Origin: an uncultured delta proteobacterium
GTDB lineage: Bacteria > RBG-13-61-14 > DRUE01
Assembly (NCBI GenBank): GCA_903930515.1
Contig: CAIYYW010000357.1
Span: forward strand, 1-30,779
Reading direction: 5' to 3'
Length of the DNA stretch: 30,779 nt
Numbering within the stretch: position 1 is the first letter of the stretch; every line of letters starts with the position of its first letter. The position numbers were made by a program, and so were the translations under genes. Positions 2,410-26,178 of this stretch are shown here, one piece after another. The notes beneath the pieces were generated by a model, which worked only from the letters and a program-made list of their open reading frames with translations, searched no databases and was not told the DNA's origin.

Positions 2410-3369
2410 ATGAAGTTTGACTTAACGACTTTCGGCGAGACCATGGTCCGGATTTCGGTCCGGCCCGGGCAGAGCCTGGAGAACGCGACCCGGATTGACC
2501 TGCATACCGGGGGCACCGAGAGCAATACCGCGGTGGCGCTTTCCCGTTTGGGGATGAAAACCGCCTGGGTGTCAAGGCTAACGGATAATGCGCTCGGAAG
2601 AAGGGTTGCCGCGGATATTTCTCGGCACGGCGTTGATACTTCCGGGATCGTCTGGACCAACCGGGACCGGATCGGGACTTATTATGTGGAATTCGCAACC
2701 CCGCCCCGAGCCAGCGCGGTCAGTTACGACCGGAAATTTTCCGCGGTGTCCAAACTCAAGCCCGGCGAGTTGGACTGGAATTTTCTGCTCAACACCAGGG
2801 TCCTCCACCTCACCGGGATTACGCCCGCACTTTCCGCTGGTTGCCGGCAGGCGGTTGCCGAGGCCAGGAAGCGCGCGCTGGCGAAAAGAATCCCGGTTTC
2901 CTTTGATCTCAACTATCGCGGCAAACTCTGGAAACCAAAAGCAGCCGCCAAGTCGCTCACTCCCTTGATTATGGATTGCGCAATCCTGATTATGACCAGG
3001 GATGACGCGGAAACCGTGTTCAAGATCAAGGGCGACCCGGAGCGGATGGTGCGCGAGATGAAAAAACGCTTTTCCCCCAGGATCGCGGTCCTGACCATCG
3101 GCGGAAAAGGCGGAATGGTCTGGGACGGAAAAAAACTTCTGTTTGAGCCGGGATACCCGATCGCCGAAACCGTGGACCGGCTCGGAGCCGGGGACGCGTT
3201 TACCGCGGGATTGATTTACGGATACCTTCATCACGACCTGGCCCTGGGACTCAAATTCGGCATCGCCGCCAGCGCCATGAAACTGGGCATGCGCGGGGAT
3301 TACTTCTGGGCGGGCAAGGAGGAAGTGGAGCAGGTGATCAAGAGCCGGGGAGGGGATGTCAGACGGTAG
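2410..3369 (+). CDS. kdgK: PfkB-family sugar kinase, probable 2-keto-3-deoxygluconate kinase
   Basis: This 319-residue protein is a ribokinase/PfkB-family kinase. It has the N-terminal sugar-binding signature GGTESNTAVALSRLG at 34-48 and the C-terminal signature DRLGAGDAF at 256-264, with catalytic Asp262 and the anion-hole GAGD. The segment TYYVEFATPPRAS near residues 90-102 followed by YDRKFSA resembles KDG kinases, where it lines the sugar site. The expected reaction is ATP-dependent 6-phosphorylation of 2-keto-3-deoxygluconate. The neighbouring KDPG aldolase would use the product, which supports the substrate assignment. I chose the start at 2410 over the ATG at 2386 because GAGG lies 7 bases before 2410 and the conserved fold begins there. 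Another 2-keto sugar could be the true substrate. Confidence 0.85.
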   Translation: MKFDLTTFGETMVRISVRPGQSLENATRIDLHTGGTESNTAVALSRLGMKTAWVSRLTDNALGRRVAADISRHGVDTSGIVWTNRDRIGTYYVEFATPPRASAVSYDRKFSAVSKLKPGELDWNFLLNTRVLHLTGITPALSAGCRQAVAEARKRALAKRIPVSFDLNYRGKLWKPKAAAKSLTPLIMDCAILIMTRDDAETVFKIKGDPERMVREMKKRFSPRIAVLTIGGKGGMVWDGKKLLFEPGYPIAETVDRLGAGDAFTAGLIYGYLHHDLALGLKFGIAASAMKLGMRGDYFWAGKEEVEQVIKSRGGDVRR

Positions 3370-3700: not shown

Positions 3701-4654
3701 ATGAAAGTTGTAATCAACTACCAGGAATACACGGAGGTTGGAATAGAGAAGGGGATTCTCAGTCAGATCCCGGGGATAGAGATTGTGGAGAGCCACAGCC
3801 GTACGGCGGAGGAGTTTATTCCGGAGGTCAGGGATGCGGACGCCTTGATCGTCCAATACGCGCCATGCTCCAGGGAAGTGATCGGGGCGATGGAGAAGTG
3901 CAAGGTGATTGTGCGTTACGGGATCGCGGTGGATACGATAGACCTGGCCGCGGCCAAATCCCGGGGGATCAAGGTTTGTAATGTGCCTCACTATTGTCTG
4001 GACGAGGTGTCCAACCACGCGCTCGCGATGATTTTGGCGTTGCACCGGAGAATATTTATCGGCGACCGTCTGCTCCGGGAGGACCGGCATCAACTGGAAA
4101 AGCTCAGACCGATCCCGCGCTTGTCCGGCCTTACGCTCGGGCTGCTCGGGTTCGGCCGGATCGCGAGGAGGATGGTGAAAAAGGCCAAACCCTTATTCGG
4201 CGAGATCATTGCCTATGACCCGCTGATCCCTCCGGAGGAGCTTACGGTCAAAGGGGTCCGGCCGGTGAGTTTGGAAAAACTTTTTATGACCGGTGATTTC
4301 CTATCCATCCATATTCCGTCCACTCCCAAGACCAAACACCTGGTCAGCCGGGAAATGATTTTTAAAATGAAACCCTCAGCCTACCTGGTCAACACCAGCA
4401 GGGGAGCGGTGATTGACGAGCAGGCCCTGGTTGAGGCGCTCCAGGAGAAAAAAATCGCCGGGGCCGGAATGGATGTTTTTGAAATTGAGCCGCTGCCTTT
4501 GGAGAGTCCGCTCCGGAAGCTGGACAATGTGATCATCACCAGCCATTACGCCTGGTATTCCGAGGGCGCGATCAAGGAGCTGAAAGAGACCGCGGCAATG
4601 GAAGCGGTGCGCGTGCTCCGGGGCGAAGCTCCCTTATATCAGGTGATGGGATGA
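3701..4654 (+). CDS. D-isomer-specific 2-hydroxyacid dehydrogenase (SerA/CtBP-like)
   Basis: This 317-residue cytoplasmic NAD-dependent dehydrogenase interconverts a 2-keto acid and a D-2-hydroxy acid. The Rossmann motif GFGRIA is at 150-155 and Asp173 in AYDPL is placed to bind the NAD ribose. The catalytic triad is complete: Arg234 in NTSRGAVID, Glu263 in FEIEPL and His282 in TSHYAW. It has no C-terminal ACT domain, so it is not a classical regulated phosphoglycerate dehydrogenase. The ribosome binding site AAGGA at 3689-3693 supports this start. Its stop codon overlaps the next start (ATGA), so it is translated together with the radical SAM gene. Its position between KDG kinase and a KduD-like gene suggests a sugar-acid or 2-keto acid substrate, but the exact one is not visible. 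Confidence 0.85.
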   Translation: MKVVINYQEYTEVGIEKGILSQIPGIEIVESHSRTAEEFIPEVRDADALIVQYAPCSREVIGAMEKCKVIVRYGIAVDTIDLAAAKSRGIKVCNVPHYCLDEVSNHALAMILALHRRIFIGDRLLREDRHQLEKLRPIPRLSGLTLGLLGFGRIARRMVKKAKPLFGEIIAYDPLIPPEELTVKGVRPVSLEKLFMTGDFLSIHIPSTPKTKHLVSREMIFKMKPSAYLVNTSRGAVIDEQALVEALQEKKIAGAGMDVFEIEPLPLESPLRKLDNVIITSHYAWYSEGAIKELKETAAMEAVRVLRGEAPLYQVMG

Positions 4655-5946
4655 AGGATTTGGAGCCGAAGCCGCTCAAGTTCAATTACTATCAGCCCAA
4701 GGCCGGGCATCCGGACTGGAAAACGCTGCATGAGGAGGCGGTGGCGCTGGCGCGCGAGATCGAGCCGCTGATCCACAAAGACGCGGATGACAGCTGGACC
4801 GACCGGATCGCCGACCGGACGCGCAAGGCCAGTTCGCTCTTGACCGTGGCCAACAACTACCGGATCAACCGCTCGCGTTTCAAGAGCGGCAACCACGCGC
4901 TCCGGCCGCTCTATTTCATCTGGACCCTGCTTTACAAATGCAATTTCCGCTGCACCTATTGCGACGACCATCGCGGCAACGCCTACTACAACCTGGAGGA
5001 CGAGCATCTGGGCTTTGCCGACCGGGTGAAGGTGCTCAAGACCATGCGCACCGGCACCAGCGCGATCTACTTCTGCGGCGGAGAGCCGACCATGGACCCG
5101 GACCTTCCGGTGTTCACGGACATCTGCTTCAACCAGGGCTATCATCCGCTGATGATCAATACCAACGGCTATGTCCTGGACAGCGCCCTGAAAAAATCGG
5201 ACTGGCACAACTGGCTCCGCCAGATGGACATCATCATCGTGAGCCTGGACGGCCTGAACCTTGAGCGGCTGCGCGGGCTCTGGGGGGTGAAGAAGGTAGA
5301 GCAGGTTCTGGTCAATTTGCTCATGCTCCGGGAGTTGCGGAAGGTGGTGGACTTCAAGCTGATCGTCAACGCCGTGATCGGCGAGAACACGGTGGAAGAG
5401 GCCGGCGAGGTTTTGGATTTTGCCAACGACCTGGGCGATGTCTGGTTCGCGCCGGTCCCGATCAACTACCACGGCGAAAAGAGCGAGGGCGGGTTTGCCT
5501 TTAAGCGCGATATGATTTCCCGGCCGGACTATCAGACCCTGGCCGGGAAAATTCTCGCCCGCAAAAAGGCCGGCGAACTGATCGTCGGCTCAAACCATAT
5601 CCTGGATATGTTGCTCAAGGTCCAGGACTACCATTGCCTGCCCACGCTTAGGCCGCATGTGGACCCGGACGGACGGATCGCCTGGCCCTGCCGCGGCCCC
5701 AAGCATGTGGAGCCGGCCTATCTCAAGTTGCTGGACTATAAAAATGTGGACGAGTGCTGGCAGGCCGCGAACCAACTTCAGACCGCGAATAATTTCCATG
5801 GCCCCGGCCCGGACCAGTGCGGGGATATGTGCGCCTGGATGCAGAACTATACCACCGCCCGTTATTTTGAATTCCTGACCAACCCCCTCGGCGCCGGGGT
5901 CTGGTCCGAGCTCAAGGAATTTGGTTTCCAGACCGCAAAGAAATAA
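4651..5946 (+). CDS. Radical SAM enzyme with SPASM-like C-terminal cysteines, substrate unknown
   Basis: This 431-residue protein carries the radical SAM cluster motif CNFRCTYC (Cys97, Cys101, Cys104), which binds the [4Fe-4S] cluster that cleaves S-adenosylmethionine. The SAM-binding GGEP is at 143-146. The C-terminal part has further cysteines at 329, 347, 369, 390 and 394 (HCLP, PCRGP, DECW, QCGDMCAW), which look like a SPASM/twitch domain holding extra clusters. Residues 1-85 form an N-terminal extension without a recognised motif. The start codon overlaps the upstream stop (ATGA), so it is translationally coupled to the hydroxyacid dehydrogenase. SPASM proteins often modify peptides or act as dehydrogenases, but no precursor peptide gene is evident. 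I do not assign a reaction. Confidence 0.85.
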   Translation: MKDLEPKPLKFNYYQPKAGHPDWKTLHEEAVALAREIEPLIHKDADDSWTDRIADRTRKASSLLTVANNYRINRSRFKSGNHALRPLYFIWTLLYKCNFRCTYCDDHRGNAYYNLEDEHLGFADRVKVLKTMRTGTSAIYFCGGEPTMDPDLPVFTDICFNQGYHPLMINTNGYVLDSALKKSDWHNWLRQMDIIIVSLDGLNLERLRGLWGVKKVEQVLVNLLMLRELRKVVDFKLIVNAVIGENTVEEAGEVLDFANDLGDVWFAPVPINYHGEKSEGGFAFKRDMISRPDYQTLAGKILARKKAGELIVGSNHILDMLLKVQDYHCLPTLRPHVDPDGRIAWPCRGPKHVEPAYLKLLDYKNVDECWQAANQLQTANNFHGPGPDQCGDMCAWMQNYTTARYFEFLTNPLGAGVWSELKEFGFQTAKK

Positions 5947-15562: not shown

Positions 15563-16879
15563 ATGTCCGGTCTGGAAATAAAAATCAAGGACTTCGCGCG
15601 CGCCCAGGGAGTTGAATTGGTGGGCGTTGCCGGGCCGGAACGACTGGACGGGCCGCCTTCGCTTGATCCCGCTTACACGCTGAGCGGGGCGCAATCCATA
15701 ATTTCCCTGGCCCTGCCTATGAAGGTTTCCGCCATCTACGATTTCCTGGGCAAGAAATCTCCGGCGCCGCATAATATGGATCAACTGCTCGGCAATCAAA
15801 AGATGCACCGGATCTGCAAGAGTCTGGAACAATACCTTCAATCGCTCGGTCCTCGGGCAAAAGCGGTCCCGCCCAACAACACCTACCGGAGATCGCCGGA
15901 TGTGTTCGCCACCCATCCGAGTTTTTCGCACCGGTTCGGGGCGATCGTCGCCGGGATCGCGGCGCAGGGCTGGAGCGGAAATGTGATGACCAGGGAATAC
16001 GGCGCGGCCGTCTATCTCGGGACCGTGGTGACCGACGCGGTCCTGGCCAGCGACCCGCTCCTGCCTCCGCGATATTTCATTGACAACTACTGTTACAAAT
16101 GCAAGCTCTGCGACAAGGTCTGCCCGTCCGGAATGTTCCAGGCAGAGGGCGAGGAATATGTGCTCCTGAACGGAGAGCTTCATCCGCGCGGAAAACGGGG
16201 GAGTATTGACCTGTGCAACATCTCCTGCTTCGGCCTGCATGGACTTTCGCGCGACCGGAAATGGACCAGTTGGGGCAGGCATTGGATCAGCGCCTGGATC
16301 GAGCATGAACCCGACCCGGCCAACAAAAGAAAAATCCGACAGGCCCTGCTGGCCAAGGGTTCCCGGACAGGCGACTCCACGCTCAGATACGATTTGATCC
16401 GGCGGCTGGGGAGCATGCTCTGGCCCGAGGATTGGATCAAAGCCATGTCCGGGCTGGAGAACCCGCCGCAGGACGAACTGGAGCGGAATAAGGTTCTGTC
16501 CGAATACGCGGAGAAGGTCGGGATCAAGGGACTCAAGGATTTCAATGTGATCACCTGCGGCCAGTGCGCGCTGGTGTGCGGGCCGAACCTGAAGGAGACC
16601 GGGGACCGGTATCACTGCCTGATCGAGTCGGGGTTGGTGGTTCCGGGACCGGAGGGGAGGATGGTGAACGCGGCCACATTTGAGCAAGCCCTGGAAATCC
16701 GCAAGCAATATCCGCAAAAGATCGGCAAGGCAGAGATGGGCAGAGACGCGCGGGCGGGAGCCAAGCTCTGGCACAAATTTTATTTCGGGATTGAACCGAA
16801 ATCCATCCTTCAAAACCTGCTTTACCGGCGCAAGCTGAAGAAAGCCGCGGCCAAAGCAGGCAAGTCTTTGCCAACCTGA
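15563..16879 (+). CDS. QueG/reductive-dehalogenase-like two-cluster Fe-S protein
   Basis: This 438-residue cytoplasmic protein has a QueG-like N-terminal half: VELVGVAGPERLDGPP at 18-32, then SGAQSIISLALPM at 41-53. A ferredoxin-like region follows, with CYKCKLCDKVCP at 177-188 (Cys177, 180, 183, 187) and CGQCALVCG at 332-340 (Cys332, 335, 339). Cys218 or Cys222 may complete the second site. QueG and reductive dehalogenases share this plan and use cobalamin plus two [4Fe-4S] clusters for one-electron reductions. It is longer than QueG and lacks a Tat signal, so it is neither a typical QueG nor a respiratory dehalogenase. AAGGAG at 15552-15557 supports the start. The next gene resembles a haloalkane dehalogenase. 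The true substrate is unknown, and it could also be only an electron carrier for the dehydrogenases. Confidence 0.65.
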   Translation: MSGLEIKIKDFARAQGVELVGVAGPERLDGPPSLDPAYTLSGAQSIISLALPMKVSAIYDFLGKKSPAPHNMDQLLGNQKMHRICKSLEQYLQSLGPRAKAVPPNNTYRRSPDVFATHPSFSHRFGAIVAGIAAQGWSGNVMTREYGAAVYLGTVVTDAVLASDPLLPPRYFIDNYCYKCKLCDKVCPSGMFQAEGEEYVLLNGELHPRGKRGSIDLCNISCFGLHGLSRDRKWTSWGRHWISAWIEHEPDPANKRKIRQALLAKGSRTGDSTLRYDLIRRLGSMLWPEDWIKAMSGLENPPQDELERNKVLSEYAEKVGIKGLKDFNVITCGQCALVCGPNLKETGDRYHCLIESGLVVPGPEGRMVNAATFEQALEIRKQYPQKIGKAEMGRDARAGAKLWHKFYFGIEPKSILQNLLYRRKLKKAAAKAGKSLPT

Positions 16880-16901
16880 TATAATAACCGGGGAGGTTAC
16901 C

Positions 16902-17819
16902 ATGCCCATTCTCAGGACTCCGGAGGAGCGGTTTTTAAATCTGCCGGGATTTCCGTTCAAGCCGAACTACACGGAAATTTTCGGGGCGCGCGTGCATTAT
17001 CTTGACGAGGGATCGGGCGAGCCGATCCTCTGTTTGCACGGCGAGCCGAGTTGGTCTTATCTTTACCGCAAGATGATCCCGGTCCTGGCGAAAAAATATC
17101 GCGCGCTCGCCCCTGATTTCATCGGGTTCGGGCGGTCGGACAAGTTCAGCGAGGTTTCCGATTACACCTATCAGATGCACCGCGATACCATCATCAAATT
17201 CATTGAGGCGATCAAGCTGGAGGGGATCACGCTGGTGGTTCAGGACTGGGGAGGGCTGATCGGACTCCGGGTGGCGACGATGCTCCCGGAGAAAATCGCC
17301 CGGCTGGTGATTATGAACACCGGGCTGCCGACCGGGGAGCACCCGATGCCGGAGCCGTTTATGAAATGGCGTAATTTCGTGGAGAAAACCCCGGACCTTC
17401 CGATTGGAATGATCTTCCGCAATTCCACCTTTTTCGGAAAACAAATTTCCGACCGGGTGATCGCGGGATACCAGGCGCCCTTCCCGGACAGCAGCTACCA
17501 GGCGGGCGCGCGGGCGTTTCCGCTGATGGTCCCGATCAAGTTGGATGATCCGGCCGCGGCGGAGCTGAGAAAAGCGCGGGACGGGATGATGAAATGGAAT
17601 AAGCCGGCGTTGGTGATGTTCTCGGACCAGGACCCGATTACCCGGGGCGCGGACAAACTTTTTCGGGCCTGGATCCCCACGGCCAAGGATCAGCCGGAGA
17701 TTGTGATCAAGGACGCGGGACATTTTTTGCAGGAAGATAAAGGCGAGGAAATCGCGGGGCATATTTTGGAATTCATTGAGCGGACGCCGCTTAGGCGGAA
17801 AGGGAAAAGGAATGAATGA
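16902..17819 (+). CDS. Haloalkane-dehalogenase-like alpha/beta hydrolase
   Basis: This 305-residue protein aligns well with the subfamily I haloalkane dehalogenase DhlA. The oxyanion segment LHGEPSWSYLYRKMIP is at 45-60 and the nucleophile elbow VVQDWGG at 112-118, with Asp115 and halide-binding Trp116. The acid is Asp244 in SDQDP and the base is His274 in DAGHFLQED. APFPDSSYQAG at 192-202 in the cap is also shared. The catalytic triad is complete. By hand alignment the second halide-binding Trp of DhlA (Trp175) falls on Met170, and the Asn used by other subfamilies is Glu48 here. Dehalogenase activity is therefore not certain, and another C-X or ester hydrolysis is possible. No signal peptide is seen. 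It starts 22 bases after the Fe-S gene and overlaps the next gene by 8 bases. Confidence 0.75.
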   Translation: MPILRTPEERFLNLPGFPFKPNYTEIFGARVHYLDEGSGEPILCLHGEPSWSYLYRKMIPVLAKKYRALAPDFIGFGRSDKFSEVSDYTYQMHRDTIIKFIEAIKLEGITLVVQDWGGLIGLRVATMLPEKIARLVIMNTGLPTGEHPMPEPFMKWRNFVEKTPDLPIGMIFRNSTFFGKQISDRVIAGYQAPFPDSSYQAGARAFPLMVPIKLDDPAAAELRKARDGMMKWNKPALVMFSDQDPITRGADKLFRAWIPTAKDQPEIVIKDAGHFLQEDKGEEIAGHILEFIERTPLRRKGKRNE

Positions 17820-19263
17820 CTATCTGAATGTTGAGATCAGCCGGAGGAGCCTGTTGGAAATGGCTCCCCGTCTGAAAATCCTCTCTCCGTTGATGCCGGA
17901 TTATGTTGCCGCCCTGGAAGAGTGGCAGGCCAAGGCCAGGGAATATGCGGAGAAATATATCCGGCCGAACGCCCTGGCGATTGATCTCAAATGCTCAAAA
18001 GACCCGCGTTATGTTGACTGGGACCTGATTAAGAAATCCACCCCTTACGGTTTCTTGTCGCTCCTGGTTCCCAAAAGCCTGGGGGGCGGCGGGCAGATGT
18101 GCACGGCGTTCGCGATTGTGATGGAAGAGCTTTGCGCGGGATGCGCCGGGATCGCCAATATTTTCGGCGCCAACGCCCTGGGCGTTTCCGGCATCCTGCT
18201 GGGCATGGATTTTTATCATTATGACCGGGCGCTTTTTGAACTGGCCGAGGGAGACCGCAAGGGCGAGCCGGTGATTTTCGCCGCGGCGATCACCGAGCCG
18301 TTGGCCGGGTCGGATGTTGAGGATCCGGTTTACTTGAAGAGCGCGAAGCTGATGACCGAGCTTAAGCCGGTTAAAGGCGGATACCTGGTGAACGGCCGCA
18401 AGGTGTTCATCAGCAACGGGTCCATCGCCAAATACACCACCCTGATCGCGCCGACCGACAAGAAGCGGCCGGTGGAAAGCATGAGCGCGGTCCTGGTCAA
18501 GCAGGGCGACCAGGGATTTTCAATCGGAAGGGTTGAGGAAAAAATGGGAATGAAGGGATGCCCGGCCGCGGAGCAGGTGTTTGAGGACTGCTTCGTTCCC
18601 AAAGAAAATCTGATTGGCGAGGAAGGAATAGCGGTGAATTTTATTGAGGTTGTGCTCGGGGCGTCGCGCGGGCCGGTCGGGGCGATCGCAACCGGCACGG
18701 CGCGCGGAGCGTTTGAGCGGGTCGTGGAGTTCGCGAAAAATCACAAGGCGGGCGGCAGAAGATTGATTGACCAGCAATGGGTGCAGATCAAGCTCGCGGA
18801 GATGGCCCGCAAGATTCATCTTGCCCGGCAGGCATATCTGGACAGCACGATGAGCTTTGATTTCACCGGAACCCCCAAATTGATGAGCACCCTTACCACC
18901 AAAATGCTCCTGGATCTCACCCCGCGTTGGGTTAGAAAAACCGCTCCCTTTACCAAGTTCCTCCGTTCAAAAACCGTCCAGAAAATAAAGGAGCGGATGG
19001 TTGAGAAAGAACTCAAACCCCAAGACCAGCGCGACATCCAGGTTTATTCCTCGCTCGCCAAAGTGACCGGGAGCGATGTGGCGATGGAAGTGGCTTATCA
19101 GGCCTTGCAGATCGCGGGCGCGTCCTCCTCTCTCCATCGCTATGAGCTGGAAAAAATTTACCGCGACGCCAAGCTGACCCAGATTTACGAGGGGACCAAC
19201 CAGTTGAACCGGCACAATATGTTCATAAACTTTTTCCCGGAGGAGGCGGCCCATGCCGAATGA
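17812..19263 (+). CDS. Acyl-CoA dehydrogenase, catalytically competent subunit
   Basis: This 483-residue flavoprotein is an acyl-CoA dehydrogenase. It has the FAD-contact segment AAAITEPLAGSDVE at 157-170, the FISNG strand at 199-203, and the C-terminal RDAKLTQIYEGTNQLNR with the catalytic base Glu460. It should remove two hydrogens from the alpha-beta bond of an acyl-CoA and pass electrons to a carrier. It is about 100 residues longer than typical members. The excess lies mainly in an insert of about 60 basic residues at about 349-410 (LTPRWVRKTAPFTKFLRSKT and onward) between the C-terminal helices. Start 17812 is chosen because AGGG lies 7 bases before it. The gene overlaps the hydrolase stop by 8 bases and the next dehydrogenase by 11, so all three are co-translated. 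Confidence 0.9.
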   Translation: MNDYLNVEISRRSLLEMAPRLKILSPLMPDYVAALEEWQAKAREYAEKYIRPNALAIDLKCSKDPRYVDWDLIKKSTPYGFLSLLVPKSLGGGGQMCTAFAIVMEELCAGCAGIANIFGANALGVSGILLGMDFYHYDRALFELAEGDRKGEPVIFAAAITEPLAGSDVEDPVYLKSAKLMTELKPVKGGYLVNGRKVFISNGSIAKYTTLIAPTDKKRPVESMSAVLVKQGDQGFSIGRVEEKMGMKGCPAAEQVFEDCFVPKENLIGEEGIAVNFIEVVLGASRGPVGAIATGTARGAFERVVEFAKNHKAGGRRLIDQQWVQIKLAEMARKIHLARQAYLDSTMSFDFTGTPKLMSTLTTKMLLDLTPRWVRKTAPFTKFLRSKTVQKIKERMVEKELKPQDQRDIQVYSSLAKVTGSDVAMEVAYQALQIAGASSSLHRYELEKIYRDAKLTQIYEGTNQLNRHNMFINFFPEEAAHAE

Positions 19264-20356
19264 AACGAACCGATATCGGGAGTTGGAACTGAGCGCGTCC
19301 AAATTCGCGGCCCGCTGGATTGAGCCGTTCGCCGCGGAGCTTGACCACACCGGCCCGGCTTTCCCAACGCAAGCTTTTGCAGCCGGAATTGAAGCCGGGT
19401 TTGACCGGCTGCTTTTGCCGGAAAGCGCGGGCGGGTCTGGATTTGAGCTGTCTGATTTTTGCGCCCTGATCAGGACCCTGGCCCAAACCTGCGCCGGGCA
19501 CGCGATGGTCTTCGGCGTGCATATCGCCCTGGTCAAATCTCTCTCTGAACTCGCAACTGAAAATTCCCGCGTTTTGCTGGAACGGGTCCTTGCCTCCGGC
19601 CGGCCCGTCGGGATTGCGTTGCCGGATATGATTTCGCTGGACCGGATTGAAACCGAGCTCAAGATTGATCCGGCCGCGAAAATTTCCGGCCCGGCCGGGC
19701 TTGCGATCAATCTTGCTCCAAATGGTTTTATCATTGCCTTTGCCCAAAATGACAAAGGCGTTCCGGCCGCGCTGATGATTGAAAGCGATGCGAAAGATCT
19801 TTTGGCCGGCCCGGAATTGGCCATCGGACTGCGGGCGATGCCGGCCGCGGAACTCAAGCTTGAGGGAAAAAGTATCGGCCGCGCCAACATCGTCTGCGAA
19901 TCGGAACAGGCGTTAAAATTATTCCGGAGCATCATCGTAAATGTTTGCTTCGCGGTTTCCGCCTCCAGCCTGGGCACGATGGAAAAGGCGTCACAGAAAG
20001 CCTTCGCCTACGCCAACGAGCGCTACCAGGGATCCAGGATGATCATTGACCATTCACATTTGAAAAATATTCTCGGAGCAATTTCCGCGAAAGCGGCAGC
20101 CGGACGGGGAGCGGTTTTCAACGCCGCTTCGGATCCGGCCGATTTTTTGAGCGCTCTCCAAACCAAGGTCCGGGTCACCGATTCCGCGGTTCAGGTCTGT
20201 GCCGATGCCGTGCAAATTTTGGGCGGATACGGATATATGCGGGAATACGGCCTGGAAAAAATGATGCGCGACTCGGCATTGCTCTCGCTGCTTCCGCTTT
20301 CCAACGCTAGGGCCGAGCTGGCAATTGCCGATGCGGAAAAGAAAAAATTGGGATGA
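19253..20356 (+). CDS. Acyl-CoA dehydrogenase-like subunit lacking the catalytic glutamate
   Basis: This 367-residue protein has the acyl-CoA dehydrogenase helical domains. These include an N-terminal helix bundle, LLLPESAGGSGFELSDF at 53-69, a C-terminal bundle with AVQILGGYGYMREYGLEKMM at 319-338, then RDSALLSLLPLSNARAEL. The tract that normally reads IYEGT is LLPLS here, so Pro348 stands where the catalytic Glu should be. The middle FAD-contact motif TEPxxGSD is also missing, replaced by ALPDMISLD. It is therefore unlikely to be active alone and is probably the partner subunit of the dehydrogenase encoded just upstream, with an 11-base gene overlap. In the steroid-degrading mycobacterial dehydrogenases, two unlike subunits share active sites, which is a fitting precedent. 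GGAGGAGG supports the start. Confidence 0.8.
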   Translation: MPNETNRYRELELSASKFAARWIEPFAAELDHTGPAFPTQAFAAGIEAGFDRLLLPESAGGSGFELSDFCALIRTLAQTCAGHAMVFGVHIALVKSLSELATENSRVLLERVLASGRPVGIALPDMISLDRIETELKIDPAAKISGPAGLAINLAPNGFIIAFAQNDKGVPAALMIESDAKDLLAGPELAIGLRAMPAAELKLEGKSIGRANIVCESEQALKLFRSIIVNVCFAVSASSLGTMEKASQKAFAYANERYQGSRMIIDHSHLKNILGAISAKAAAGRGAVFNAASDPADFLSALQTKVRVTDSAVQVCADAVQILGGYGYMREYGLEKMMRDSALLSLLPLSNARAELAIADAEKKKLG

Positions 20357-20372
20357 CCAAAAGAGGGGCAAG

Positions 20373-21137
20373 ATGAAAGGGGATTTTTTCAAGGGGATCA
20401 AGCAATGGGAATTTGAAGCGCAGGGACGGAAAGGCATGCTGCCGGTATTTTATTATGACAATTCCTCAATGAGCGCGATTTACACGGCCAAGACCTCCGA
20501 GGCGAGGAAGCTGCTGCCGCTTAAGGAAATGAACCCGGTGGAATTTTTACCGGGAAGGTGCCTGGTGGCGTTCACCGCCTTTGAATACCGCAAGACCGAC
20601 ATTGACCCCTACAACGAATTCAGCATCGCCTTCCTGATTTCCTACAACCGGGCGCAAATCCCCGGCCTGACCGCGTTGAAGGGATTGTTAGCCAACACCT
20701 TCAGCGCCTATGTCTGGCAATTGCCGGTGACCACCGAGATCGCCCGGATCGGCGGGGTGGAGCTTTTCGGGTATCCGAAATTCCTCGCCGGGATCAAGTT
20801 CAACCAGGGCAAGGAATGGCGGGAATGCGAACTCTCCGAGGGCAACAGAAAAATCCTCAACTTCCGGGGCAAGGTCCTGCCCGGAAGCCCGGCAAAAGTA
20901 ACCCGCTATGTCACTTACTCGGTCCTGGACCGGATTCCGCTGGCGGCGAATATTTATACCAATCCGCTGGAATTCAAACAGAGCATCAGCGGCGACGACG
21001 CCGCGGTTGAATTGGGGGATCATCAGATCGCCGAGACCCTGAAACAGATCGGCCTGAGCAAGAAGCCGCTCGTTTACCAGTTCTCGCCGCTGACCGAGGT
21101 GATCCTGTTTGGAGGGAGAAATTTAATTGACCACTGA
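20373..21137 (+). CDS. Acetoacetate-decarboxylase-like (ADC superfamily) protein
   Basis: This 254-residue protein belongs to the ADC superfamily. Its best mark is VELFGYPKFLAGI at 129-141, matching the RELSAYPKKLGYP segment of clostridial acetoacetate decarboxylase. Lys136 aligns with the Schiff-base lysine. The neighbouring lysine that lowers its pKa in true decarboxylases is Phe137 here, so plain acetoacetate decarboxylation is doubtful. Other superfamily members act as aldolase-dehydratases or on other keto acids. Start 20373 is preferred over in-frame codons upstream because AGGGG precedes it and the overlap with the dehydrogenase is avoided. The gap to that gene is 16 bases. It is part of the operon and may act on a 3-keto or 2-keto intermediate. 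Confidence 0.7.
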   Translation: MKGDFFKGIKQWEFEAQGRKGMLPVFYYDNSSMSAIYTAKTSEARKLLPLKEMNPVEFLPGRCLVAFTAFEYRKTDIDPYNEFSIAFLISYNRAQIPGLTALKGLLANTFSAYVWQLPVTTEIARIGGVELFGYPKFLAGIKFNQGKEWRECELSEGNRKILNFRGKVLPGSPAKVTRYVTYSVLDRIPLAANIYTNPLEFKQSISGDDAAVELGDHQIAETLKQIGLSKKPLVYQFSPLTEVILFGGRNLIDH

Positions 21138-21156
21138 AAATTTGCGGGAGAATAAA

Positions 21157-22263
21157 ATGAGCGGAAACGATCCCTATTTAAAAATCTATGAAAAAATTGA
21201 ACGCGGCCCCCTGGGCGCGCCCAAGGCGGGCGGAGAAGTTTCCCAGGCCTTCCTGGCTTTTTTAAAACTGGTCTATACCCCGGATCAAGCCCAAGTGGTT
21301 CAGCAACTGGAGGTTCCTTACAGGTTTAAAAAGATTCCGGAGATAGCCCAGGCCGCGGGCAGGGATGAGGCCGCGGTGAAAAGCGCGCTTGACGCCCTGG
21401 CCGGAAAATGCGCGATCATCGGGATCAATGATATGTATTGCCTGCCGATGATTCCGATGCTTCTGAACAACCATCAGTTTTATGCCCGGCTCCAGCCGGA
21501 AGACCTGGAGGCCGCGAAATTATACCAGCAGTTTTTTATCAAGGAAGGCTTTTACAAATATTATGAAAGTTCGGAAAAAGGCACGCCGACTATGCGGGTG
21601 ATCCCGGTGCGGCGCTCGTTGGAGCCGAGCCAGAAAATTCTGGATACCGAAGAGGCGCATAAAATCATTCAATCCGCCAATCACCTGGCCCTGGTTCCCT
21701 GCCCGTGCCGGACCCGGACGGAAAAACTCGGGATCCGGGAATGCAAAGATAAATACCCGATCGGGTTCTGCATTATGACCAATGCCTCGGCGCTGGTTTT
21801 TGAAAAAGCCGGGTTGGGAAAAAGGGTGACGCCGGAGCAGGCTGCAAAATATTTTGACGAGATGCAGGACCTGGGCCTGGTCGGGATCACGGAAAACTAT
21901 CAGGACAAAAATCACGATGTGATCTGCTTATGCTGTGATTGCTGCTGCTCGCAGGTGCGGGGAAGGACCAGGTGGGAAAACCCGCTGGCCGTCGCCCCGG
22001 CCAACTTCGTTCCGGAAGCGAACGAGGATTGCATCCTGTGCGGGGATTGCGAGGAAAGATGTTTCTTTTCCGCGATCACTCTGGATGAGAAACTGGGGAG
22101 GGCCGTGGCGGACCCGAATAAATGCCTGGGTTGCGGAGTCTGCGCCATCGGCTGCCCGCAATCCGCGCTAAGACTCAAAAGGTTGGAACGACACACTCCG
22201 TTCGCGGGCCCGCGCGAGCTTTATTCAAAGGTTGCCGAAGAAAATAAGCGCGGGAAAAATTGA
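21157..22263 (+). CDS. Cysteine-rich ferredoxin-type protein with N-terminal helix-turn-helix-like domain
   Basis: This 368-residue protein joins three parts. Residues about 28-100 look like a winged-helix domain (KIPEIAQAAGRDEAAVKSAL, then a short helix and a wing). The middle has unusual cysteine groups: CPC at 182-184, Cys196, Cys205, and CLCCDCCC at 257-264. The C-terminus holds two classical [4Fe-4S] motifs, CILCGDCEERC at 292-302 and CLGCGVCAIGCP at 323-334. The C-terminal clusters suit electron transfer. The cysteine-rich middle could hold another cluster or metal. GGGAG at 21146-21150 supports the start at 21157. The gene lies in the acyl-CoA dehydrogenase operon and could accept electrons from it. 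An HTH-like front could also regulate the operon by redox state. I cannot tell which. Confidence 0.75.
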   Translation: MSGNDPYLKIYEKIERGPLGAPKAGGEVSQAFLAFLKLVYTPDQAQVVQQLEVPYRFKKIPEIAQAAGRDEAAVKSALDALAGKCAIIGINDMYCLPMIPMLLNNHQFYARLQPEDLEAAKLYQQFFIKEGFYKYYESSEKGTPTMRVIPVRRSLEPSQKILDTEEAHKIIQSANHLALVPCPCRTRTEKLGIRECKDKYPIGFCIMTNASALVFEKAGLGKRVTPEQAAKYFDEMQDLGLVGITENYQDKNHDVICLCCDCCCSQVRGRTRWENPLAVAPANFVPEANEDCILCGDCEERCFFSAITLDEKLGRAVADPNKCLGCGVCAIGCPQSALRLKRLERHTPFAGPRELYSKVAEENKRGKN

Positions 22264-22291
22264 GCCGCGCTGCTTAAAAGGGGGGAACAAA

Positions 22292-23509
22292 ATGAGAAAT
22301 GCGAAAAGGATTTCGGGTTCAATCATAATTTTCTTGCTGAGCCTGTTCTTGGCGGATCAAGCTTTCGCGCTCAAGACCTTTGCCCCGGATGGGCCGTATC
22401 CGGTGGGAGTCAGGATAGATCGTCTGCAACTCAAAGACCGGACCGCGCCGGTGATGGTCTGGTATCCCGCGGAAACAAATCCCGGCCCGGTTTATAAATA
22501 CACCGACAAGCTGGAAGGGGCGGCCCGGCTTAACGCCCCGGTGAAAAAATCCGGCGCGCCGTATCCGCTTCTTTTGTTCTCGCACGGGATGGGAGCGTGC
22601 GCCTGCCAGTCGGTTTATTACACGGAGAATTTGGCCAGCTTCGGATATGTGGTGGTGGCGCCGGATCATAAGGACTCGGCGATGTGCCATATTGACGGGC
22701 CTCCCGACATTACGGTCGGCCAGATCGCCAAGGCCGCGCTCAAGAGCGGGGGCGACCTTTCCCAAACCGTGTTCGGCCTGTTCCGGTCCAAGTTTGAGGA
22801 ACTCGGTTATGATTTTTCCTACCGGCCGATTGAAGCCAAGGCCGCGATTGATCTGGCGCTGGCCTGGAACCGGGATCGCAGCAGCCCCTTCTTCGGGATT
22901 ATGGACCCGGACCGGATCGGCGCCACCGGACATTCGCTGGGGGGATATACCACGATGATGGTCGGCGGCGTGCCCTTCCATTGTGAGGGATCCGCGCCCG
23001 GCCCCGAGCAATGCCAAACGGACAAGATCAGCCTGACTGATAATATCAATCCCTGCTGTATGAAATATCTCCAGGGGAAGGACCCCTTTGCGGCCCGCGA
23101 TCCCAGGGTCAAGGCGATGCTCCCGCTCGGACCCGCGGTTTTTTTCCCCAAGCTGGAACAAGCCGCGAAAGAAATTACCATCCCGGTAATGATCATCACC
23201 GGAGACAATCACAAGATGGAAGTGCCGTGGGAACGGATCCGGACTTTTTATCAGAACGCGCCCGCGCCCAAATATTTGATCCGGCTCAGGAAGACCGACC
23301 ATCTCACCATCTCCGACCTGACCCTGTCCTCCAGTTTTCTGACCCGGCTGCTCCTGCCGGGGTTCCGAGATCACTACCGGGAAAAGGCACAAGCCGCCAA
23401 GGACTACTCGGTTGCTTTTTTCAACAAGTATTTAAAGGCCGACAATTCTCAATCCCAAGTCTTGGAAAAGGCGTCCAACCCGGTGGTGGAGTTGTGGTTT
23501 GAGAAATGA
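22292..23509 (+). CDS. Exported alpha/beta hydrolase, PAF-acetylhydrolase/dienelactone-hydrolase-like
   Basis: This 405-residue protein has an N-terminal signal peptide (IIIFLLSLFLADQAFA, cleavage after Ala26), so it is exported. The hydrolase fold begins with PYPVGVRIDRLQL and VMVWYPA, a start typical of PAF-acetylhydrolase-like enzymes. The nucleophile Ser215 is in GHSLGG, the likely acid is Asp305 in ITGDNHK, and the base is His337 in KTDHLT. LFSHGMG at 95-101 forms the oxyanion region. Several Cys (103, 105, 132, 231, 241, 255, 256) may form disulfides. It should hydrolyse an ester or thioester outside the cytoplasm. Start 22292 is set by AAGGGGGG a few bases upstream and by the signal peptide. 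It is the last gene of the tight operon. It could release the substrate from an ester before uptake. Confidence 0.75.
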   Translation: MRNAKRISGSIIIFLLSLFLADQAFALKTFAPDGPYPVGVRIDRLQLKDRTAPVMVWYPAETNPGPVYKYTDKLEGAARLNAPVKKSGAPYPLLLFSHGMGACACQSVYYTENLASFGYVVVAPDHKDSAMCHIDGPPDITVGQIAKAALKSGGDLSQTVFGLFRSKFEELGYDFSYRPIEAKAAIDLALAWNRDRSSPFFGIMDPDRIGATGHSLGGYTTMMVGGVPFHCEGSAPGPEQCQTDKISLTDNINPCCMKYLQGKDPFAARDPRVKAMLPLGPAVFFPKLEQAAKEITIPVMIITGDNHKMEVPWERIRTFYQNAPAPKYLIRLRKTDHLTISDLTLSSSFLTRLLLPGFRDHYREKAQAAKDYSVAFFNKYLKADNSQSQVLEKASNPVVELWFEK

Positions 23510-23520
23510 AAGGAGCTGTC

Positions 23521-23646
23521 AGGGGATCGGGAAAGAGATGGCTGATCGGCTGGGGCAAGCCGAACAGGAAGAGATGTCTCCGATCCCCTCGGACTTGCGG
23601 ATGAGCCGAAGATAATCTTTAATAACCTCCAAGGGTAATTGGAGGT
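23521..23646 (+). promoter_or_regulatory. Structured leader with ribosome-site-burying hairpin before the dehydratase-like gene
   Basis: Between 23510 and 23655 several perfect inverted pairs occur. AGGGGATCGG (23521-23530) pairs with CCGATCCCCT (23580-23589) and encloses a TCGGCT/AGCCGA hairpin (23546-23551, 23558-23563). A second AGCCGA at 23604-23609 could compete for the same TCGGCT. The last hairpin ACCTCCAA-GGGTAA-TTGGAGGT (23625-23646) buries the ribosome binding site GGAGG, 10 bases before the ATG at 23656. This is what a translational switch would look like. It fits no riboswitch class that I recognise. Confidence 0.5.
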
Positions 23647-23655
23647 AAAAAAACA

Positions 23656-25125
23656 ATGGCGTTAAAAACCGCGTCCGAATATCTTGAGAGCCTGCGCCGG
23701 ATGAAGCTAAACCTTTTCCTGTTGGGAGAAAAGGTGGAGGATTGGGTTGAACATCCGATCATCCGGCCCTCAATCAACTCGGTGGCAATGACTTACAAGC
23801 TGGCCCAAAAGCCCGAGACCAGGGAACTCGCAATCACCGGCTCAACCTTGATCAAGGAACCGATCAACCGGTTCAACTCCCTGTTCCAGAGCGCGGCGGA
23901 ACTGGTGCTCAAGGTCAAGCTCCAGCGGGAAATGGGACGGAGGACCGGGGCCTGTTTTCAAAGATGCGTGGGCATGGACGCCATCAACGCGGTCTTCAGC
24001 GTCACCTTTGAAATGGACCGCAAGCATCAGACCGACTATCACCAACGCTTCCAGGACTGGCTAAAATATGTCCAGCAAAACGACCTGATGGTCCAGGGAG
24101 CGATGACCGATGTCAAGGGGGACCGCGGGCTTAGCCCCTCGGAGCAGAAAGACCCGGACCTGTTCGTGCATATCGTTGACCGGTCCAATCAGGGAATCGT
24201 GATCCGGGGAGCCAAGGCCAGCCAGACCGGCGCGGCCAACTCGCACGAAATCCTGGTTATGCCCACCCTGCGTCTTTCCGAAAAGGAAAAAGAATTCGCT
24301 CTCTGCTGCGCCACTCCCACGGACGCCCGGGGCATTCATCTGGTTTATGGCCGCCAGCCCAACGACACCCGCAAGCTGGAAAAGGCGGACCTGGATTTGG
24401 GCAATTTGGGGTTCGGCGGTCAGGAAACCCTGACCATTTTTGACAATGTTTTTATCCCGTGGGAGAGGGTGTTTATGGACGGGGAAACGGATTTTTCCAG
24501 CCCCCTGGTGGAGCGGTTCGCGTCATATCACCGCCAGAGTTACGGCGGGTGCAAGTCCGGGATCGGCGATGTTTTGATCGGAGCCGCGGCATCAATGGCC
24601 GATTACAACGGGGTGGCAAAAGCCTCTCATATCCGGGACAAGCTCGCGGAAATGGTCCATTTGGTGGAAACCATTTATTCCTGCGGACTGGCCTGCTCCT
24701 ATGAAGGGGAAAAAACCGCAGCCGGTAATTTCCAGTGCAACATCCTGCTCGCCAATGTCTGCAAGCTCAATGTCACCCGGCTACCCTATGAACTATGCCG
24801 GCTCGCGGAAGACATTGCCGGCGGACTCTTAGTGACCATGCCCTCGGAAAAAGACCTCAGGAACCCGGAGGTGGGCAGGCTGGTGGAAAAATATCTGCGC
24901 GGAAAGGCCGAAGTCAGCACCGAGGCCCGGATGCGGATGCTATCCCTGATCCATTCTATGACCATGGGAACCACCGCGCCCAGCTACCGGACCGAGTCAA
25001 TGCACGGAGCCGGCTCCCCCCAGGCACAAAAAATTATGATTGAGCGGCTGGCAAACCTGGATGCAAGAAAAAAACTCGCCCGAAAAATCGCCGGGATTGA
25101 CCAGAGAGAGGATGTGCTGGAATGA
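23656..25125 (+). CDS. 4-hydroxybutyryl-CoA dehydratase/vinylacetyl-CoA isomerase-family enzyme
   Basis: This 489-residue protein is of the HpaB/4-hydroxybutyryl-CoA dehydratase flavoprotein superfamily and has the full length of the clostridial enzyme. The four [4Fe-4S] ligands of 4-hydroxybutyryl-CoA dehydratase are present with the same spacing: Cys100 and Cys104 in GACFQRCVGMDAINA, and His292 and Cys299 in YHRQSYGGCKSG. True hydroxylases of the superfamily lack these, so a dehydratase-like radical mechanism is favoured. Such enzymes dehydrate 4-hydroxybutyryl-CoA to crotonyl-CoA using FAD and the cluster and are oxygen-sensitive, supporting an anaerobic host. Substrate relatives are possible. 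The ribosome binding site GGAGG sits in a hairpin, so expression may be controlled. The gene is 146 bases after the hydrolase and is the last plus-strand gene of the block. Confidence 0.8.
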   Translation: MALKTASEYLESLRRMKLNLFLLGEKVEDWVEHPIIRPSINSVAMTYKLAQKPETRELAITGSTLIKEPINRFNSLFQSAAELVLKVKLQREMGRRTGACFQRCVGMDAINAVFSVTFEMDRKHQTDYHQRFQDWLKYVQQNDLMVQGAMTDVKGDRGLSPSEQKDPDLFVHIVDRSNQGIVIRGAKASQTGAANSHEILVMPTLRLSEKEKEFALCCATPTDARGIHLVYGRQPNDTRKLEKADLDLGNLGFGGQETLTIFDNVFIPWERVFMDGETDFSSPLVERFASYHRQSYGGCKSGIGDVLIGAAASMADYNGVAKASHIRDKLAEMVHLVETIYSCGLACSYEGEKTAAGNFQCNILLANVCKLNVTRLPYELCRLAEDIAGGLLVTMPSEKDLRNPEVGRLVEKYLRGKAEVSTEARMRMLSLIHSMTMGTTAPSYRTESMHGAGSPQAQKIMIERLANLDARKKLARKIAGIDQREDVLE

Positions 25126-25197: not shown

Positions 25198-26178
25198 TCA
25201 GGCCTTAAATCCACGGGGGCTTAAGACCGACACCCCTTTCCCGAAACTCCTGATCCAGCTCCTGATTTCTTCCGAGTCGAACAGCTCCATAATCAAAATT
25301 ACCGAGCCGTCCTTTTGGGTTTTCAGTTTCTGGCTCTTATGCCATTTCCGTTCCGAGATGTAGCGGCTGAGTGCCGCCTGAAACCTGAGCTTAAAAATCG
25401 TCCTGGGTTCTCCGCCAAAAATCCCGAAAGCCCCCTCCAGCATCTGCTCCGGATGATAGTCCTTGGGATAGTCAAATTTTTCCTTCAGCTCTTCGCAGTC
25501 CTGGAGCCGTTCAATGGCAAAATATAAAGGCTTTTCCCCGTCAACCGGCCTTGCCACCAAATAAAGCCCGCCCTTATACAAGAGCAGGGTATATGGTTCC
25601 ACAATGTATTCATCAGGCTCTCCGCGGTCGCGGGAACGGACCAGCTTGAGCCGCTTCTGGTAAACCAAGGCCTTGAGCGCGGTATTGAGGATATCGTCAT
25701 ACGCGCTGTAGTCCTTGGGCGCATAAGGCGCGGTAAAGATCTTCAAAGAAAGGTTCTTGAGCAGCTCGCGCTGGGACCCGGGAAGCCTGGACTCAACCTC
25801 CGTCATCAAATGGTCCACCTGGGTGGCGAAAATATTGTTCGCGCCCAGCATCTTGAAAATCTCCAAAGAAAGATAAACCGAGACCAGGTGGTAAATATTC
25901 GCGCTGGAAGCATCCCCAGTCCGGGGCCGCCGTTTCAACCATTCCTCCTGATGTATCCTCTCAATCACGAACTCCGGCTCTTCCTCCTCCGTTAAAAAAT
26001 GGTCCTCCATCGCCTTCACATACCGCCGCAAACTCTGCACGGTTATCCCCAGCCGCTCAGCCATGCCCTCAACCCGCACCCCGATGCTGTGCCTGGGCAT
26101 CTCATCCACCAGCTTGGCCATCCGCAAAGCCGACGGATATGTCGCCCGCCGATAAGACCCCTTCCGCTTAGCTTTCAT
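25198..26178 (-). CDS. WYL-domain transcriptional regulator
   Basis: This 326-residue protein has an N-terminal helix-turn-helix (RMAKLVDEMPRHSIGVRVEG, then MAERLGITVQSLRRYVKAME) and a central WYL domain. The WYL core is EYIVEPYTLLLYKGGLYLVA, then RPVDGEKPLYFAIERLQDCE. The Trp-Tyr-Leu trio is Leu-Tyr-Leu here. A C-terminal WCX-like segment with FKLRFQAALSRYISERKWHK follows. WYL proteins sense nucleotides or other ligands and control stress, DNA damage or defence genes. It is transcribed away from the TPR-like gene at 26293, and a 15-bp palindrome lies between them, so autoregulation is likely. GAAGAGGT lies upstream of 26178. It could regulate the dehydratase-like gene, to which it converges, but the divergent neighbour is the better guess. 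Confidence 0.85.
   Translation of the reverse strand: MKAKRKGSYRRATYPSALRMAKLVDEMPRHSIGVRVEGMAERLGITVQSLRRYVKAMEDHFLTEEEEPEFVIERIHQEEWLKRRPRTGDASSANIYHLVSVYLSLEIFKMLGANNIFATQVDHLMTEVESRLPGSQRELLKNLSLKIFTAPYAPKDYSAYDDILNTALKALVYQKRLKLVRSRDRGEPDEYIVEPYTLLLYKGGLYLVARPVDGEKPLYFAIERLQDCEELKEKFDYPKDYHPEQMLEGAFGIFGGEPRTIFKLRFQAALSRYISERKWHKSQKLKTQKDGSVILIMELFDSEEIRSWIRSFGKGVSVLSPRGFKA

Follow-up and report, generated by a model that had tools for sequence, protein, structure and literature searches.

In E. coli, stable hairpins without U-tracts are known to mark protected operon segments (PMC5927463), and ribosome binding sites that are buried in a stem can still be used via ribosome standby, e.g., in tisB (PMC7708055). 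These two cases, together with translational riboswitches and erm-type leader-peptide attenuation, are the systems with which we compare a locus in a window of 30,779 nt, by which we mean the whole stretch of DNA analysed. The locus is a structured intercistronic spacer of 146 nt (23510 to 23655, plus strand), in which a long hairpin is followed by a second one that covers the Shine-Dalgarno (SD) sequence of the downstream gene.

The gene run and its last enzyme

The spacer interrupts a plus-strand gene run that starts at 15563 and ends with the gene directly downstream of it (23656 to 25125, plus strand), which encodes a protein of the 4-hydroxybutyryl-CoA dehydratase/vinylacetyl-CoA delta-isomerase type. 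Upstream lies an esterase gene of the PAF-acetylhydrolase/chlorophyllase type (22232 to 23509, plus strand, as given in the ORF list; Pfam PF03403, E 8e-15), whose stop codon occupies 23507-23509 and whose true start is probably later than listed, near 22292. Allowing for likely starts, all other junctions in the run are overlaps or gaps of about 30 nt or less, and the 146-nt spacer is the sole gap exceeding roughly 30 nt. No promoter-like or terminator-like site was found in the spacer, and the genes of the run are assumed to be cotranscribed across it. The tightly packed region 15563-25125 comprises genes for a QueG-like iron-sulphur protein, a haloalkane-dehalogenase-like hydrolase, two acyl-CoA dehydrogenases, an acetoacetate-decarboxylase-family protein, a ferredoxin, the esterase and the dehydratase, several of these names being assigned from reading the sequence alone. 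The run possibly encodes an anaerobic degradation pathway; its gene set was not seen together around the fetched homologues. A gene for a WYL-domain regulator is located nearby (25198-26178), and there is no tRNA within the window.

The downstream protein of 489 amino acids matches the 4-hydroxybutyryl-CoA dehydratase structure PDB 1u8v over residues 3-481 (E 1.4e-195) and, likewise along the full protein, the vinylacetyl-CoA delta-isomerase 6vjr, both far better than it matches HpaB monooxygenases; it is a flavoprotein of this dehydratase/isomerase type. The motifs CFQRC and HRQSYGGC are aligned in both the downstream protein and 1u8v, so that the Cys-x3-Cys and His-x6-Cys positions are kept. 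The Cys/Cys/His/Cys positions of the 1u8v family are those which we take to be the ligands of the iron-sulphur cluster, and the downstream protein likely carries such a cluster as well. Because of the full-length family match and the kept Cys/His positions, the suggestion of the earlier note that the gene encodes an oxygen-sensitive enzyme is reasonable.

Predicted folding of the spacer

All stems that had been described for the spacer are present at their exact positions. The long imperfect hairpin (23521 to 23589, plus strand) begins 11 nt past the esterase stop codon, stands independent of the second hairpin and has arms that are single-copy in the genome. It consists of a 10-bp base stem with perfect arms (AGGGGATCGG, 23521-23530, and CCGATCCCCT, 23580-23589), a symmetric 9x9 purine-rich internal loop with the strands AAGAGATGG and GAAGAGATG, and an inner part of a 3-bp and a 6-bp stem, the latter formed by TCGGCT (23546-23551) and AGCCGA (23558-23563). 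The repeated motif AAGAGATG in the 9x9 loop can be aligned as G.A and A-U pairs, by which the element could become a nearly continuous rod, although the pairing is just weakly beyond chance (P about 0.07). The hairpin is stable and not terminator-like; since it lacks a U-tract, it is not an intrinsic terminator. It is followed by a second AGCCGA (23604 to 23609, plus strand), by an A/U-rich stretch (23610-23624) and by the SD-covering hairpin (23625 to 23646, plus strand), which has a perfect 8-bp stem of ACCTCCAA (23625-23632) and TTGGAGGT (23639-23646) closed by the loop GGGTAA. The Shine-Dalgarno sequence GGAGGT, with GGAGG at 23641-23645, is inside this stem ahead of the ATG at 23656, so that the ribosome binding site is indeed buried: in the predicted ensemble it is stably paired, with an unpaired probability near 0 and an opening cost of 9.8 kcal/mol.

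For the region 23521-23660 the minimum free energy is -54.2 kcal/mol with a z of -5.0, and none of 200 dinucleotide shuffles was as good. A different shuffle set with slightly different ends gave a z of -3.9, so that for the spacer a z between about -4 and -5 is adopted. For the upstream element by itself (23521-23609) the z is -3.4. With the background of about 0.92 Mb of contigs of the same genome and simple gene calls, the spacer ranks third by folding z among 282 leader-like regions, and the two regions outranking it precede ORFs that appear doubtful on inspection, one of them beside a simple inverted repeat. The 8-bp SD stem is the longest among about 740 genes of the sampled genome, and its opening cost ranks seventh of 294 genes (top 3%). 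SD stems of 6 bp occur in 11 genes, of 7 bp in two and of 8 bp in this one, and given this smooth tail, finding a single 8-bp SD stem in a genome lies close to the chance expectation. The overall structure of the spacer is thus a genome outlier, and the buried SD by itself is extreme, not unique; it is the combination of elements that is unusual, not the SD stem alone. Two regions of the genome attracted attention on inspection: region L136 (around 4640-4860), fourth by folding z, resembles RNase P RNA as recognised by eye, and region L142 (4393-4610) contains a strong inverted repeat, CTCCTCTCCCTTGATGGGAGAGGAACCAGGAGAGGG, that has the appearance of a dispersed genomic repeat or a REP-like element.

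These numbers bear on the simplest alternative, namely that the structure is unselected and that a spacer rich in G+C, located where two genes were joined recently, contains by coincidence two inverted repeats, of which one covers the SD. The expected frequency of one 8-bp SD stem per genome fits this reading, but the outlying z of the whole spacer does not, and neither does the 10-bp perfect inverted repeat, which was reached within the 146 nt in none of 400 dinucleotide shuffles. We consider chance structure possible, if rather unlikely.

The perfect 8-6-8 palindrome ACCTCCAA-N6-TTGGAGGT might also act as a DNA operator, e.g., of the adjacent WYL-domain regulator, instead of as an RNA hairpin. 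However, with up to three mismatches the palindrome occurs 17 times compared to 25 times for the reversed control, the spacer is free of promoter-like sites, and half of the palindrome is explained by the SD that it contains, which makes an operator very improbable. A regulon palindrome was likewise rejected, as the palindrome count is not above that of the control. The pattern ACCTCC..GGAGGT occurs three times in the genome versus once in the control, the other two occurrences apparently inside reading frames, and the SD hairpin was dismissed as a genome-wide repeat.

Possible switching and leader-peptide coupling

The earlier note had proposed a translational switch in which the second AGCCGA competes for TCGGCT. 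The second copy exists, but the fold in which it pairs loses about 7 kcal/mol of stability (an ensemble energy difference of 7.0 kcal/mol), and the SD hairpin is closed in this fold as well. When truncated transcripts were folded, the large hairpin formed immediately on its completion, and the strongest competitor for ACCTCCAA from upstream was a 4-bp GGAG-CTCC pairing that is lost once the SD is transcribed. As the SD stays closed in the rival fold and upstream rivals are weak, the two alternative folds do not control the SD, and in the predicted ensemble there are no alternative folds of which one exposes and the other hides it. In line with the earlier note no known riboswitch class could be assigned, as Rfam gave no family match for the spacer at gathering or at permissive thresholds, and a literature search for a riboswitch of a 4-hydroxybutyryl-CoA dehydratase-type enzyme yielded no relevant title. 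An orphan riboswitch or a protein-responsive translational switch, with the upstream domain controlling the SD hairpin, would agree with the layout of a folded domain before an SD-sequestering stem and with the metabolic enzyme downstream. Yet only the 4-bp pairing competes for the arms of the SD stem, the AGCCGA fold leaves the SD covered, and both an Rfam family and a second genomic copy are absent, so that we regard such a switch as improbable. We have equally little confidence in the wider form of this idea, in which an orphan regulatory RNA of a single lineage, from a poorly sampled phylum, would control translation of an oxygen-sensitive CoA dehydratase by sensing a metabolite, a protein or the redox state.

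Translation through the spacer was considered as another way of opening the hairpin. A 25-codon open frame (23538 to 23615, plus strand; peptide MADRLGQAEQEEMSPIPSDLRMSRR), which is not evidently a gene, traverses the large hairpin, includes two AAGAGATG motifs, each with an in-frame ATG codon, and stops 9 nt ahead of the SD hairpin. In the model a ribosome covering the RNA up to 23628 breaks the SD hairpin, but one covering it to 23625 leaves the hairpin closed. Moreover, frames of such length are found in 19% of shuffles, and this one has no clear SD, starts inside the large hairpin and contains no run of a single amino acid. That translation of this frame opens the SD hairpin is accordingly doubtful in our opinion, to about the same degree as the orphan switch.

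Distribution of the spacer

A covariance model (R1), weak by nature since it was built from a single sequence, matched in its own genome the spacer itself and, the hairpin being almost a palindrome, also the reverse strand of the spacer. Around homologues of the two genes R1 gave no match in any of the other loci, and under stricter filters it had none in 386 genomes besides the source genome. A DNA search of 41 genomes detected the spacer in no other genome. No copy was found in the two other genomes of the phylum either, which is represented by only three genomes in the set. Within the genome there is no second copy according to BLAST, the model or the arm pattern, and a repeated or mobile element was rejected on this basis. 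In a viral collection neither a core string nor the protein was matched.

The homologous leaders were also read directly. The earlier note had named leaders lacking the stems as the outcome that would refute a conserved RNA, and this is what was found: of the 64 that were folded, none shares either element, and their SD stems do not exceed 4 bp. Strong folding (z -4.3) was also seen in one of these leaders, L033, but it is due to an unrelated hairpin. In the same-order homologue the gap is 69 nt and its sequence is unrelated to the spacer, and no dehydratase homologue was present in the genome of the same genus, which is 87% complete. The dehydratase homologues elsewhere have different gene neighbours, and one would therefore expect distant homologues to lack the leader even if it has a function at this locus. 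As far as the sequences compared can tell, a conserved RNA class attached to the dehydratase gene is ruled out, and a local function remains compatible with the data. The failure of every search to find the spacer elsewhere and the changing neighbourhoods of the homologues are also what unselected structure would predict.

The homologous loci showed two further features. The same-order dehydratase homologue (L003) is flanked near 1441-1500 and 3000-3020 by GGGACACC.../...GGTGTCCC repeats, which hint at a family of REP-like repeats. In 9 of 65 homologue leaders (L019, L020, L023, L029, L030, L031, L032, L034, L053), mainly from Desulfosporosinus and Syntrophomonadaceae, there are sigma-54-like -24/-12 sites, e.g., TGGCACAGTAATTGCA, at about 100-190 nt before the start of the dehydratase homologue, versus 17 of 1106 control stretches; the window has none. 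Sigma-54 control of the 4-hydroxybutyryl-CoA dehydratase enzyme group has been reported in Clostridia (PMC12316311).

Proposed role and comparison with known systems

The explanation that we favour, with about an even chance of being correct, is that the structured spacer is specific to its lineage and allows the last gene of the run to be expressed at a level of its own, separately from the preceding genes. The SD hairpin would keep initiation at the dehydratase gene low, initiation would depend on ribosome standby at the A/U-rich stretch or on a trans factor. The large hairpin may, in the manner of protective operon hairpins, shield the 3' end of the mRNA upstream of it, or it may mark a processing site. 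Control of this kind would be local and unswitched and implies no ligand sensing. The proposal is based on the fold z of -5, on the SD stem being the longest in the genome sample and on the opening cost in the top 3%, as well as on the overlapping or short junctions elsewhere in the run and on a spacer devoid of promoter- and terminator-like sites. It is weakened because no relative carries the spacer, so that selection for the pairs is conjectural, because chance alone would nearly account for one SD stem of 8 bp in a genome and because cotranscription is assumed. Likely, the mRNA structure in the spacer is of an ordinary kind, or it is unselected. If the mechanism is true, this would be one more case in which RNA structure adjusts the output of the last enzyme in a gene run, and the tuned product would be an iron-sulphur flavoenzyme that could be costly when unneeded. 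As long as relatives are not seen to share it, the spacer has little value beyond this locus, since nothing ties it to a shared mechanism.

With translational riboswitches the spacer has in common the layout, a folded domain ahead of a stem that sequesters the SD, but it differs in having no SD-freeing alternative pairing, no family match and no homologues. Like the leaders of erm-type translational attenuation it contains a short open frame before a sequestered SD, whereas a frame of this length is readily expected by chance and there is no sign of a rearrangement that depends on stalling. The tisB mRNA (PMC7708055) is similar in that a stable stem lies over the ribosome site and an unpaired stretch and a structured element are located upstream. 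For tisB, however, experiments have shown that RNA processing and a standby site at a distance are required, whereas every such step is inferred for the spacer, and the gene behind the spacer is a metabolic one within a gene run. Many of the described protective hairpins of the malE-malF type (PMC5927463) are conserved among relatives, whereas the spacer was found in none and is known from its sequence only; as in these cases, its hairpin is stable, has no U-tract and is located just past a stop codon between two genes of a run.
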